64,000 nt of DNA, taken from Alteromonas sp. CI.11.F.A3 (GTDB taxonomy: Bacteria; Pseudomonadota; Gammaproteobacteria; Enterobacterales; Alteromonadaceae). Under the pieces are notes generated by a model. That model saw only the letters and a program-made list of their open reading frames with translations, did not search any database and was not told the DNA's origin. Below are positions 14,330 to 56,147 of the stretch, in pieces (the first letter of the stretch is position 1; each line of letters opens with the position of its first letter). A program made the position numbers and the translations under genes. Where the stretch lies: the NCBI RefSeq assembly GCF_032925565.1, contig NZ_CP136708.1, positions 1,674,001-1,738,000 of the forward strand. Reading direction: 5' to 3'.

Positions 14330-14467
14330 TTATATATAAATTGGCGTGGAGCGTTAGCCTAAATTAAGTGCTACAACTACTCCTTGCCTAACACGCGGTA
14401 ATCACTGTCATAATAGTGTCATCGTTATCACGTGTAGTAGAACGCCATGGGGTGTTGAAATCGCCGC

Positions 14468-33012: not shown

Positions 33013-33120
33013 TTGTTAGCGCTCTTTTATTGTCAGAGATGAAAGTTTCAAAACTTGCTGTTAGTTCTATAATTTTTACGTATTAACGAATAGGTAAAGG
33101 TATTCAGCGTGATACCTTTT

Positions 33121-33154
33121 CTGTCACGTTTCTGTCATCAATATATCATTTAAT
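33121..33154 (+). promoter_or_regulatory. Pho box and -10 of the chemoreceptor gene
   Basis: Direct repeats CTGTCAC (33121-33127) and CTGTCAT (33132-33138) are 11 bp apart, matching the two-unit PhoB box. Ten bp later comes TTTAAT (33149-33154) as -10, with no -35 needed, the standard layout of PhoB-activated promoters. The gene starts ~50 bp downstream. Confidence 0.75.
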
Positions 33155-33204: not shown

Positions 33205-34827
33205 GTGTTCAATTATACCAGTATCAGTCGATTGGTAATTACCCCTGTGCTTGCGAGCTTATGTTTATTGGTTTTTCTAAACGCCGCATCCATCTACAAA
33301 TCTTTCTCGCTGCTAAACAGTTTCGAATCACTAGAGCATACCCTTGTTCAGGCAGAGCGTGACGTTAACGCAACCTTAAATACCTTCAAAACCCAAGTTC
33401 AGGAGTGGAAAAATACATTGCTGAGAGGACACAACGACGACGATCGTGAAAAGTACTGGTCTCGTTTTCAAAAACGAGAAGCTGAGATAAAGCAACAATT
33501 TAGCCAAATGCTGGCAAACCCTGTAGTAAGCGACAAAGCCAAAGCGGATATTCGAAAATTCCAGACAGCGCACGCCTTTATGGCAGAAAAGTACAGAGAA
33601 GGTTATGCGGCTTTTATCGCATCGGGCCTAGACCCGAAAGTAGGGGATAGTTACGTTCGTGGTATCGACCGAGAGCCTGCAAAATTACTTGGAAGCATTG
33701 CTGATGAAATAGCACATCAATCTGAACTAGCCATTACTGATTTAAAAAACGGTACGCGCAGGATGTTGTGGCTCATTTTGCTTGCTGCTATTGTGCTGTC
33801 ACTGCTATCTGTAGTTTATGTAATTAGTCGTCTTCGCTCTCAAGTGATTAACCCTACTCGTGAAGTAGCCGCGTGTATTTCTAACCTCGCTACTAGTCAA
33901 TACGATTACCCGCTGACTTATTCAAGTGGACACGAGCTAGGCATTTTGGCTGACTCTGCCAGAGCATTACAAAGCAAGTTAAAAAACTCGGTTACCCAAT
34001 TGCATCAAACTGAATTAGAAATGGAACGGGCTTTCGTTGCCCTTGGCGATGTAGGGCAATCAATTATGGATGGCGCGGTAGAGCAGCGCGATGCTTCACT
34101 ATCGTTAGATGCCACCACTGATAAACTAAAAGGCATAGTACAGAACTTGGTTGCGATTACTGACCAAGTGGCTGTGGCTACCAAAAATTCAGAAGAGAAC
34201 GTAGCGAGTTGCTATTCAACTTTTGAGCGTGCAAATACTGGGTTTAAACAACTAGCAAAAACAGTAACAGAGTCGAGTGATATTGTAAGCGACCTACAAA
34301 GCCGCAGTAAAAATATTCTCAAAGTGGTTAATGTAATTAACGAAATTGCCGATCAAACCAACTTATTAGCACTGAATGCTGCCATTGAAGCCGCTAGGGC
34401 AGGCGAGCATGGCAGAGGCTTTGCCGTGGTAGCAGATGAAGTGCGGGCGTTGGCAGCGAAAACACAGCAATCGACGAAAGAGATAAACGATATTCTTAGT
34501 AGTTTTGAAGCCGAAGCCCGTGGAGCCGTGTTGGCCATGGAAGAAGGTAAGCAGCTCTCAGACAGCAATGCGGCTGAAGCTGCTATTGCATTACAAACCC
34601 TGAATAATGTGGTTGATGATATTAAGGAAACGGCAAGCGTTGTGGTTGCCCTTAATGAAGCAGCTGACGAGCAAGAGGCAGTGTTATCGCAGGTGGAAAG
34701 TATTATTGCGAATGTGGTGGCATCGTCTGACCGCTATCATAAATTGGCGCAACGTGATGACATGGCTGAGTCGATGAAGAGTATGTCGGTCAATGTGGAA
34801 AAAGTGGTGAACAGTTTAACCCGCTAA
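33205..34827 (+). CDS. Methyl-accepting chemotaxis protein
   Basis: A 540-residue transmembrane chemoreceptor. TM1 is at about residues 8-30, a ~155-residue periplasmic helical sensor follows, TM2 is at about 186-207 ([20 protein letters not shown]), then a HAMP-like region and a cytoplasmic coiled coil. The kinase-control hairpin tip ([22 protein letters not shown]) is canonical. No CheR-tethering pentapeptide is present at the C-terminus. It starts with GTG behind AAAGG. A Pho-box promoter upstream suggests induction under phosphate starvation, so the ligand may relate to phosphorus acquisition; that is inference. Confidence 0.93.
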
Positions 34828-53374: not shown

Positions 53375-55129
53375 TTACGCCGACTTCTTCAATTCAGGCT
53401 TTAATTGAGTTGCTCCTAAATAACGTTCCTTTTTCTTTGGCGTTAGCGCTTCTAAATCGACCACTACCAAGCCATCTATGCAGTCGTTAAAATCAGGATC
53501 TACATTGAAATCGAGGAAGGCCACTCCACCCGTTTTCGAGAGTTCACTGTATTGCTTGTATAAAGTAGGTACATTCACTCCCATATTAGCGAGTAGATGC
53601 TTTAACTGGGTAAACTCAGATTTGTAGTCTTTACCTGTAAAGGTATACAAGGCATCTTGCGACATTTGATAAGGGCGTTTCGATTTAGCTTGGCCAAATT
53701 TAGCCGGAAAGTAAATTGAGTAAAACTGTACGATCAAATCTTTAGCTGGCTGAGGATAAGCGTTACTTAACGACACGGCCCCAAACATATATCGGTATTT
53801 CGGGTAACGATTTAAAAACGCGCCAATGCCTACCCATAAATAATCTAGGCTACGTTTACCCCAATAGCAGGGTTGTACAAAGCTTCTGCCCAGTTCTAAC
53901 CCTGCACCAAACATGGTGGCATTAGCACTAGCATCGGTATTAGTCTTGCCTGTGCCATAATCGAACAAGGTGGCTGAATATAACCCCGTAGGGTGGTCTT
54001 GTTGACTAAGTATTTCTGCATCTCCAAATCGATAAGCGCCTACGATTTCTAAATTACTCTCATCCCACAAAATCAAATGATAATAATGAGTATCGTATTG
54101 GTCTATATCACGGCGTTTGTTCGTGCCTTCGCCCACTGCCCGAAATGCAATTTCTCTCAAGCGACCAATTTCACGCATAATTGGTGAGCAATTTTTATGT
54201 TGGTATAAATATATCGACTGACCATCACTGGTGTGGCCTAAGTGTTCACATTGCTTCATTGCACGGGAAAGCTCTTTTCTGTCTTCCGGCATGGCCACTG
54301 GGGCTTGGGTGTCGAAAATACCTTTCTTGTTGCTGCCAATTCGATATAAGTGGCGTTTAAATAGTTTCACCTGATCTTTAAGCGCTATGCTGGTTTGTTG
54401 GTAAGACTCAAAGGGAATAAGCTCGCCTATTCGCATAGGAAGGTGTTTCTTGCGTTGCTTAAACATTTCTTTTACTAGCAGCGCAGTGGCTAAGGGTTTG
54501 TATACCATAGACACCCCATAAAACAGCGGGCTATTTTTGGCATCAATATAAACCGGAAGAATAGGGGATTTGGCTTGTCGGGCGATGCGCAAAAAACCGG
54601 AATGCCAAAGCGTATCTCTTACACCTTGAGGTCGTAGTCGTGAAACTTCCCCAGCGGGAAAGATTAAAATGGCGCCGTCTGATCGCAAGTGTTCTTGTAT
54701 AGCGCTTAAATGCTGTTTCGGCGTACCGCCTTGCATGTTGTTTACTGGCAGTAACATATCGTGCAAAGGCTCAATGGCCATGAGCATTTGGTTCGCCACG
54801 ACTTTTAAATCGTGACGAACTTCACTCACCAGCTTAATTAACGCAAGGGCGTCTAGCGAGCCGATAGGGTGATTGGCAATAATCACCACTCGTCCTTGTG
54901 ATGGAATACGCTCTTTCTCTACGTCACGGGTAGAGTAGCTAATATTGAAGTATTCGAGCACTTGCTCAACAAAGTCGATATCTTCGTAGTGGGGGTAGGT
55001 TTCGCCGAACTCTATTATTTCTCGTTCATGCAAAAGGTGGCGCAGCACAAACGATAAAGACCTAAACAACAAGGGGTTGTTAGCCACTTGGGGATAGTGT
55101 TTATTTAGTACTTCATCAACTGTAAACAT
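53375..55129 (-). CDS. olsF: OlsF-like bifunctional ornithine-lipid synthase
   Basis: 584 residues with two acyltransferase modules. The N-terminal half is PlsC/OlsA-like (ANHPIGSLDAL near residue 87, and LIFPAGEVSRL). The C-terminal half is OlsB-like, of the acetyltransferase/hemolysin type (REIAFRAVGEGTNKRRDID, HLILWDE, GAYRFG). This order is that of OlsF, which makes phosphorus-free ornithine lipids by N- and then O-acylation. The ATG at 55129 is chosen over an in-frame GTG at 55180, because the GTG falls inside the Pho-box array, upstream of the predicted transcription start. It lies downstream of the plcP-like gene on the same strand, with its own PhoB-type promoter. A general GNAT/PlsC fusion of other function cannot be excluded. 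Confidence 0.72.
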   Translation of the reverse strand: MFTVDEVLNKHYPQVANNPLLFRSLSFVLRHLLHEREIIEFGETYPHYEDIDFVEQVLEYFNISYSTRDVEKERIPSQGRVVIIANHPIGSLDALALIKLVSEVRHDLKVVANQMLMAIEPLHDMLLPVNNMQGGTPKQHLSAIQEHLRSDGAILIFPAGEVSRLRPQGVRDTLWHSGFLRIARQAKSPILPVYIDAKNSPLFYGVSMVYKPLATALLVKEMFKQRKKHLPMRIGELIPFESYQQTSIALKDQVKLFKRHLYRIGSNKKGIFDTQAPVAMPEDRKELSRAMKQCEHLGHTSDGQSIYLYQHKNCSPIMREIGRLREIAFRAVGEGTNKRRDIDQYDTHYYHLILWDESNLEIVGAYRFGDAEILSQQDHPTGLYSATLFDYGTGKTNTDASANATMFGAGLELGRSFVQPCYWGKRSLDYLWVGIGAFLNRYPKYRYMFGAVSLSNAYPQPAKDLIVQFYSIYFPAKFGQAKSKRPYQMSQDALYTFTGKDYKSEFTQLKHLLANMGVNVPTLYKQYSELSKTGGVAFLDFNVDPDFNDCIDGLVVVDLEALTPKKKERYLGATQLKPELKKSA

Positions 55130-55150
55130 AGTCTTTCTCGGTTTTTGCGA

Positions 55151-55206
55151 ACAATAGCAGGGGAATGTGACGTTTTTCACACAGTTAGATGTCAGTTATC
55201 TGACAA
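55151..55206 (-). promoter_or_regulatory. Four-unit Pho-box array and -10 of olsF
   Basis: On the minus strand the heptamers TTGTCAG, CTGACAT, CTGTGTG and ACGTCAC follow each other at exactly 11-bp steps (plus-strand positions 55200-55206, 55189-55195, 55178-55184 and 55167-55173). Ten bases after the last comes TATTGT (55151-55156) as -10. Transcription would start ~15 nt before the ATG at 55129. Confidence 0.7.
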
Positions 55207-55257
55207 TGCAGAGACCCGCGTTCCGTGAATTATGAAACGCGGGTTTAAGTGGTATGC

Positions 55258-56058
55258 TTATGCTGCTTTTGATGGTGAATTTTTCACTTTCAATGGGGTA
55301 ACGTTATCTGCGTTGTTCATGGTCTCAAGGGAGTAAATCAGGGATAGGTTTCCATTTTCGTCTTCACCCAACGCAGTACAGTTTTCCATCCAATCACCGT
55401 CGTTAATGTAGTGGATGCCATTTTCCATTGTGCTTTCAGGGTGATGAATATGACCACAAATTACGCCATCAAGCCCCATTTCTGCGGCACGAGAACAACA
55501 AGCCTCTCGGTAGCGAGCAATTGCTTCATTTGCGCCTTTGATGTGCTTTTTAATGTAACCTGCAAGTGACCAGTACTCACGTTTACGCCAACTACGAAAA
55601 CGATTGAACTCGCGATTTAAAAACAGCAGTAGGTCGTAACCTTTATCACCAATCCACGCATGGAATTTACCCATGGTGACATCGCCATCAAATTGATCGC
55701 CATGTAACACGAGGTAGCGTTTGCCTTGGGCAGTGGTATGCACAAGTTGACGTTCAATTTCGATATCACCAAATGCCATGCCTGAATATGACTGAATGGG
55801 TTCGTCATGATTACCTGGGAGATAAACAACGCGAGTGCCATCTTGGCTCATCGCCATTAGCTTATGCATAACTTGATTGTGCGCTTGCGGCCAACGAAAT
55901 TGTTTTGTCATTTGCCACATATCGACAATGTCGCCAACCAAATATAGGGTATCGACAGTAACGCTGTTTAAAAATGAAAGTAGGTATTCAGCTTTGCAAT
56001 CACGATTGCCAAGATGAATGTCAGAAAGCCAAAGTGTGCGGTAATGTGTTTTTTTCAT
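55258..56058 (-). CDS. plcP: PlcP/LpxH-like calcineurin-type phosphoesterase
   Basis: 266 residues with all dimetal phosphoesterase motifs: LSDIHLGNRD, VGDIVDMW, PGNHDEP, LHGDQFDGD and GHIHHPE. The family is usually labelled UDP-2,3-diacylglucosamine diphosphatase-like, but its members include PlcP, a phospholipase C that removes phosphate head groups from phospholipids under phosphate limitation. The Pho-box array directly upstream and the adjacent olsF-like gene favour PlcP here; LpxH activity in lipid A synthesis is the alternative. There is no signal peptide, so it would act at the cytoplasmic face of the inner membrane. Confidence 0.7.
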   Translation of the reverse strand: MKKTHYRTLWLSDIHLGNRDCKAEYLLSFLNSVTVDTLYLVGDIVDMWQMTKQFRWPQAHNQVMHKLMAMSQDGTRVVYLPGNHDEPIQSYSGMAFGDIEIERQLVHTTAQGKRYLVLHGDQFDGDVTMGKFHAWIGDKGYDLLLFLNREFNRFRSWRKREYWSLAGYIKKHIKGANEAIARYREACCSRAAEMGLDGVICGHIHHPESTMENGIHYINDGDWMENCTALGEDENGNLSLIYSLETMNNADNVTPLKVKNSPSKAA

Positions 56059-56091
56059 AGCAAGGTCCCAAAGCGATTGCCTTGGAACGCC

Positions 56092-56147
56092 ACTATATGG
56101 AGGTTAATTGACAAAATAGTGACGCTTGTTTGACGATAGTGTTACAG
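56092..56147 (-). promoter_or_regulatory. Four-unit Pho-box array and -10 of plcP
   Basis: Minus-strand heptamers CTGTAAC, TCGTCAA, GCGTCAC and TTGTCAA lie at exact 11-bp steps (plus positions 56141-56147, 56130-56136, 56119-56125 and 56108-56114). After 10 bp comes TATAGT (56092-56097). Same architecture as the olsF promoter. Confidence 0.75.

Follow-up and report, generated by a model that had tools for sequence, protein, structure and literature searches.

A 64,000-nucleotide stretch (here, the window) of the genome of Alteromonas sp. CI.11.F.A3 carries two adjacent genes on its minus strand, plcP and olsF, which, judging from their families, promoters, and distribution among relatives, very probably form a module for membrane-lipid remodelling under phosphate starvation. 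The first gene is predicted to encode a PlcP-type phospholipase C and the second a bifunctional ornithine lipid synthase, OlsF. The gene families suggest that phospholipid would be swapped for phosphorus-free ornithine lipid. In the sampled relatives, PlcP is almost always accompanied by OlsF, usually next door, and the Pho-box arrays upstream of the two genes follow the transcription units.

On the minus strand, plcP comes first and is followed by a gap of 128 nt and then by olsF. The span of 53375 to 56147 given for the pair in a preliminary description, made from the DNA letters, is correct, and the features within it are as follows.

56108..56147, minus strand: four-heptamer Pho-box-like array of plcP at 11-bp steps, kept in relatives
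56092..56097, minus strand: -10 element TATAGT of plcP, 10 bp past the array end
55258..56058, minus strand: plcP, PlcP-type metallophosphoesterase (predicted phospholipase C), 266 amino acids
55214..55244, minus strand: hairpin (11-bp stem, z -5.2) in the interval from plcP to the olsF array, a possible transcript end
55167..55206, minus strand: four-heptamer Pho-box-like array of olsF at 11-bp steps, kept in relatives
55151..55156, minus strand: -10 element TATTGT of olsF, 10 bp past the array end
53375..55129, minus strand: olsF, bifunctional ornithine lipid synthase with PF19576 and PF13444 acyltransferase domains, 584 amino acids

The hairpin between the genes has no T-run and was not picked up by the terminator scan. 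The start of olsF was set at the ATG at 55129, and not at the GTG at 55180 of the open reading frame (ORF) list, because the OlsF model aligns from residue 1 of that ATG.

The product of olsF passes the NCBIfam equivalog model for OlsF (870 bits, cut-off 620, residues 1 to 571), which bears out the OlsF-like identity proposed in the preliminary description. It contains PF19576 at residues 25 to 263 and the GNAT acyltransferase domain PF13444 at residues 324 to 432; PMC11631085 assigns the former to the N-terminus of OlsF. It is conceivable that the enzyme makes a different aminolipid, for example, one with lysine, and that the module swaps phospholipid for that lipid, since a role in lysine lipids is regarded as likely for an OlsF homologue elsewhere (PMC11631085). 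The strength of the equivalog match and the scores on the glycine lipid models, both under their cut-offs (GlsA, 170.7 of 260; GlsB, 158.1 of 300), argue against this alternative, which we consider very unlikely.

The identity of the first gene product is less obvious from its annotation, as databases often name close relatives of the PlcP type LpxH or UDP-2,3-diacylglucosamine diphosphatase. An assignment of the phosphoesterase to lipid A metabolism, whether as LpxH or as its second copy, with the adjacency to olsF being incidental, would agree with the LpxH-type source names of most of the close relatives listed, with six solved-structure matches that are all UDP-2,3-diacylglucosamine hydrolases, and with membership in the same metallophosphoesterase superfamily. 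However, the protein falls far under the cut-offs of the LpxH models (46.8 bits for TIGR01854, cut-off 190.35), whereas another gene of the genome reaches 309.6 bits and is the true LpxH, to which the window PlcP is only 25% identical over 129 amino acids. The GNHD motif occurs in 51/51 family PlcPs and 80/80 PlcPs from named species, whereas the LpxH of the same genome has GNRD at that place (12 of the PlcPs with GNHD have an additional GNRD elsewhere in the sequence). The window PlcP is 43 to 50% identical, mostly from residues 2 to 8 through residues 240 to 266, to PlcPs adjoining GT4 glycosyltransferases; the PlcPs used for comparison are known from sequence and neighbourhood, none with a measured activity. 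Together with the adjacency to olsF in most genomes that have both genes (76/98) and the Pho arrays described below, these results led us to reject LpxH, which is hardly credible as the identity of this protein. They agree with the PlcP-like assignment of the preliminary description and remove one of the cases that it had named as refuting, namely, that the phosphoesterase is the only LpxH of the cell. Residues D13, H15, D43, N83, H84, H119, H203, and H205, which we take to be the metal ligands of the metallophosphoesterase superfamily, are invariant in an alignment of 21 sequences. The closest PlcP of a named species, from Alteromonas sp. 76-1, shows 98% identity, and the predicted structure of the window PlcP has a mean predicted local distance difference test (pLDDT) score of 81.5.

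The two promoters have a parallel design. On the minus strand, that of plcP reads CTGTAAC-TCGTCAA-GCGTCAC-TTGTCAA with 4-nt spacers, then TTAACCTCCA, then TATAGT; that of olsF reads TTGTCAG-CTGACAT-CTGTGTG-ACGTCAC, then ATTCCCCTGC, then TATTGT, and includes one weak heptamer, CTGTGTG. These letters agree with the four heptamers in 11-bp phase ending 10 bp before each -10 element that had been described. Arrays were scored as matches out of 28 to CTGTCAT, which we take to be the E. coli-type Pho-box heptamer consensus. At 11-bp steps, the plcP and olsF promoters score 18/28 and 19/28, respectively, and the best scores at steps of 9, 10, 12, and 13 bp are 12 to 13/28. Three places in the window (plcP, olsF, and position 14383) combine an array score of at least 18 with a -10 element matching at least 4/6 at the right distance, versus a mean of 0.15 such places in 20 copies of the window generated with a first-order Markov model. 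PhoB is encoded in the genome (366 bits versus a cut-off of 296), and a 448-amino-acid open frame lies behind phoB on the same strand. Further four-box array matches in the window are located at 14383 and at 33110 to 33121 on the plus strand; at 33121 (plus strand), two good boxes, CTGTCAC and CTGTCAT, lie upstream of an ORF at 33205.

Conservation in relatives is what makes the predicted arrays secure. Upstream regions of 51 plcP and 51 olsF genes were taken from the window and from 60 stretches of 50 relatives. Arrays scoring at least 17/28 at 11-bp steps were found upstream of 42/51 plcP and 30/51 olsF genes, and at each of the steps of 8, 9, 10, 12, 13, and 14 bp only 0 to 4 of the same regions reach 17. 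A similar picture emerges from the PlcP loci of named species (see below): 38 of the 79 (out of 80) with enough upstream sequence reach 17 at 11-bp steps, versus 2 to 4 at four other steps. Where the arrays sit depends on gene arrangement. (i) Among 37 tandem plcP-olsF pairs, the window included, olsF has an array of its own (score of at least 16) in 24/29 pairs with a gap of at least 70 nt and in 0/8 pairs with a shorter gap (Fisher p 3e-5), the 70-nt border and the threshold of 16 having been picked post hoc and 10% of 612 off-step control scores reaching 16. In 7/8 short-gap pairs, the array sits at plcP. (ii) In all three fetched operons with the order olsF-plcP, the olsF array scores 20, and plcP, with scores of 12 to 14, has no array. 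(iii) In 10 genomes with the two genes far apart, the array is retained at olsF in 8 and at plcP in 9. The Pho-box reading of the preliminary description is thus supported both by the presence of a phoB gene and by arrays kept for each transcription unit in relatives.

The linkage of the two genes was surveyed in a sample of 196 genomes of the window's family, taken to be Alteromonadaceae, with OlsF called over the model cut-off and PlcP at E < 1e-50. OlsF is present in 124 genomes and PlcP in 100; 98 have both, 26 OlsF only, 2 PlcP only, and 70 neither (Fisher p 2e-28, kinship ignored). When one genome per genus was taken (52 genera), the respective numbers were 25, 7, 0, and 20 (p 7e-9). The link between plcP and olsF that had been proposed from this single locus therefore extends to 98 of the 100 genomes with PlcP. 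Only two genomes have PlcP alone. In one (G081; locus L179), olsF lies next to plcP and is divided between two reading frames, the gene being either split or disrupted; in the other (G059), the plcP array scores 19 and no OlsF is over the cut-off. Three partial PlcP matches (G028, G011, and G136; E values of 1e-23 to 1e-17) were left out of these counts; when they are included, OlsF accompanies PlcP in 99/103 genomes, and the per-genus sample has 26 with both and 1 with PlcP only. In 76/98 genomes with both, the genes lie within 3 kb, with 24 to 341 nt between the matches: 71 in the order plcP-olsF, 4 in the order olsF-plcP, and 1 on opposite strands. In the remaining 22, they are separated or lie on different contigs. 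Some family genomes (G100:C12, G049:C1, and others) encode a second OlsF-like protein of about 330 to 415 bits, under the OlsF cut-off. Vibrio cholerae likewise has two OlsF proteins (PMC12186959).

We propose the following mechanism. At low phosphate, PhoB would bind the four-box arrays and switch on each promoter, as suggested by the boxes and the phoB gene. PlcP, if it acts as its family predicts, would strip the phosphorylated head groups from phosphatidylethanolamine and phosphatidylglycerol, freeing phosphorus and leaving diacylglycerol. OlsF would N-acylate ornithine with a 3-hydroxyacyl chain and then O-acylate the product, again as expected from its family, and the resulting ornithine lipid would fill the membrane. 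Agt and BtaAB, the usual partners of PlcP, consume diacylglycerol, and OlsF does not. Because of this, the two steps would be joined by regulation and not by a shared intermediate. The same biochemistry could be taken to mean that the genes belong to the Pho regulon independently, with PlcP mainly scavenging phosphorus, OlsF adding a stress lipid, and no matched exchange between them. Such independence would fit the 26/124 OlsF genomes without PlcP, the 22/98 genomes in which both genes are present and nonadjacent, and the action of V. cholerae OlsF under PhoB (PMC12186959). It is unlikely, however, because full-length PlcP occurs without an OlsF over the cut-off in only 2/100 genomes, including the one with the two-frame olsF beside plcP, and because linkage is retained in several gene orders.

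Several observations weigh against a remodelling module controlled by PhoB. The single-genome box statistics are modest, because a looser three-box pattern shows no clear excess over the whole genome (387 + 372 versus 371 + 367 in a reversed control); the array at 14383 is probably a chance match. The claim that parallel promoters are hard to explain by chance thus holds modestly in this genome and is secured by the relatives. Even there, a score of 17 is reached in front of 23/237 other ORFs (200 amino acids or longer) of the same loci, a share above the 2% of the off-step control that does so; some of the 23 may overlap the plcP or olsF arrays. Of the three genomes with partial PlcP matches, G028 has an OlsF over the cut-off, and G011 and G136 have none. 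The head group is a further caveat, as OlsF could use another amino acid such as lysine. Finally, uninfected Pseudoalteromonas cells have been reported not to alter their phospholipid acquisition strategy with phosphate, and in Tara data olsF abundance showed no significant correlation to relative N and P. Weighed against the conserved arrays and linkage, these points leave a phosphate-starvation remodelling module as the preferred reading of plcP-olsF.

The partner genes of PlcP differ between lineages. A scan of the genomes of named species gave at least 585 PlcP relatives, of which the best 80 were kept, favouring sequences near the window PlcP. Partners were defined as genes on the same strand within 500 nt, and for the OlsF cases adjacency was established by inspection. 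At these best 80 of at least 585 loci, the partner is OlsF in 12, a GT4 glycosyltransferase that is Agt-type or close to it in 36 (the label "Agt" rests on neighbourhood and GT4 domains and on no curated model), an OlsB-like and/or monogalactosyldiacylglycerol (MGDG)-synthase-like protein in 7, and none of these in 25. The OlsF-partnered loci belong to Alteromonas, Aestuariibacter, Glaciecola, Thalassotalea, Rheinheimera, Shewanella, Psychrosphaera, and unclassified Alteromonadaceae. OlsB-like GNAT genes were seen in eight plcP loci, mostly of Burkholderiales (L124, L129, L145, L152, L157, L161, L167, and L173), three of them also with an MGDG-synthase-like gene, which suggests other linkages between plcP and aminolipids.

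A search with five aligned Agt-type proteins found no Agt at 1e-40 in the 196 family genomes, with scoring confined to the first 10 candidates in at least some genomes (10 of 12 in the window's own); 5/5 control genomes were positive at 3e-150 or lower. A first glycosyltransferase query (L137) had been dropped as a distant, unspecific GT4 that matched 192/196 genomes. PF11899, which we take to be BtaA, was found in 3/196 family genomes and was not found in the window's genome. Nor was DgkA found in the window's genome, with a positive E. coli control. The genome has a DAGK_cat protein (561-amino-acid open frame, 94.7 bits), and there is no Pho array upstream of its gene (best score, 14). The SAR11 glycosyltransferase partner of PlcP consumes diacylglycerol (PMC8231724). 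Tentatively, PlcP may have switched its partner for good in this family: it would have been kept almost only with OlsF, with Agt and, nearly always, BtaA gone, and diacylglycerol would be phosphorylated or taken apart and not built into a surrogate lipid, its acyl chains perhaps feeding ornithine-lipid synthesis. If so, regulation and the recycling of acyl chains would couple the remodelling circuit, here without DgkA as the recycling kinase.

A larger conserved cluster around the pair was considered and rejected, as no further gene family occurs in more than 16/60 fetched loci; one further neighbour family is shared by 10 loci, and several others by at most 6. Common neighbour families in 10 representatives scanned include M20 and M28 peptidases, MurJ, riboflavin kinase/FAD synthetase, LysR, SDR, OmpW, and others. 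A glycosyltransferase-like family lies in the plcP/olsF flanks of five fetched loci (L058, L067, L068, L078, and L087); its L078 member is MJ1255/VC2487-like (193.6 bits, just below the cut-off of 195.9).

Alteromonas and its relatives are common marine copiotrophs. Our data predict which lipid they use under phosphate limitation, a subject on which no study of these organisms was found among the literature listings examined. They also explain why a gene labelled LpxH in databases is not LpxH, and they raise the question of where diacylglycerol goes when it is no substrate of the partner enzyme. Among the papers listed by a literature search, whose reach did not extend to most subscription papers and preprints, none was found to report a plcP-olsF gene pair for Alteromonadaceae; both words occur in PMC9239053, PMC6298996, PMC5082522, and PMC9938194.

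It is established that PlcP-dependent remodelling can use betaine lipids or glycolipids (PMC4796936), and among the six types of plcP neighbourhood in that paper btaAB and glycosyltransferases are named in its accessible part and olsF is not. The PlcP-Agt and PlcP-BtaAB systems of Phaeobacter MED193, SAR11 HTCC7211, and Erythrobacter NAP1 resemble the window in the PlcP family, the putative Pho boxes, and the adjoining partner gene for a phosphorus-free lipid (PMC4796936), but their partners use the diacylglycerol from PlcP, which OlsF does not. In V. cholerae (VC0489), control of OlsF by PhoB is established, with ornithine lipid under phosphate limitation; no mention of PlcP is counted for that paper (PMC12186959), whereas here plcP lies next door with a parallel promoter. 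Pseudomonas putida BIRD-1 combines a PHO-dependent PlcP with the ornithine lipid synthesis proteins OlsAB in one cell, but it uses the two-protein OlsBA route, and by locus number plcP (1390) is far from olsAB (0974-0975) (PMC5082522). In the flavobacterium Dokdonia sp. MED134, plcP and an OlsF gene likewise occur together with aminolipids, and about one-third of the phospholipid content is lost on P starvation (PMC4796936, PMC11631085); the accessible parts of these sources describe neither linkage of the genes nor a promoter design common to them. The preliminary description had called the PlcP-OlsF coupling a distinct variant. PlcP together with aminolipid synthesis is already found in P. 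putida BIRD-1 and Dokdonia MED134, and with all three traits present in the latter, the combination has a precedent. The PlcP-OlsF pair is a variant of a known remodelling strategy, in which the joining of PlcP to aminolipid synthesis is not wholly new.

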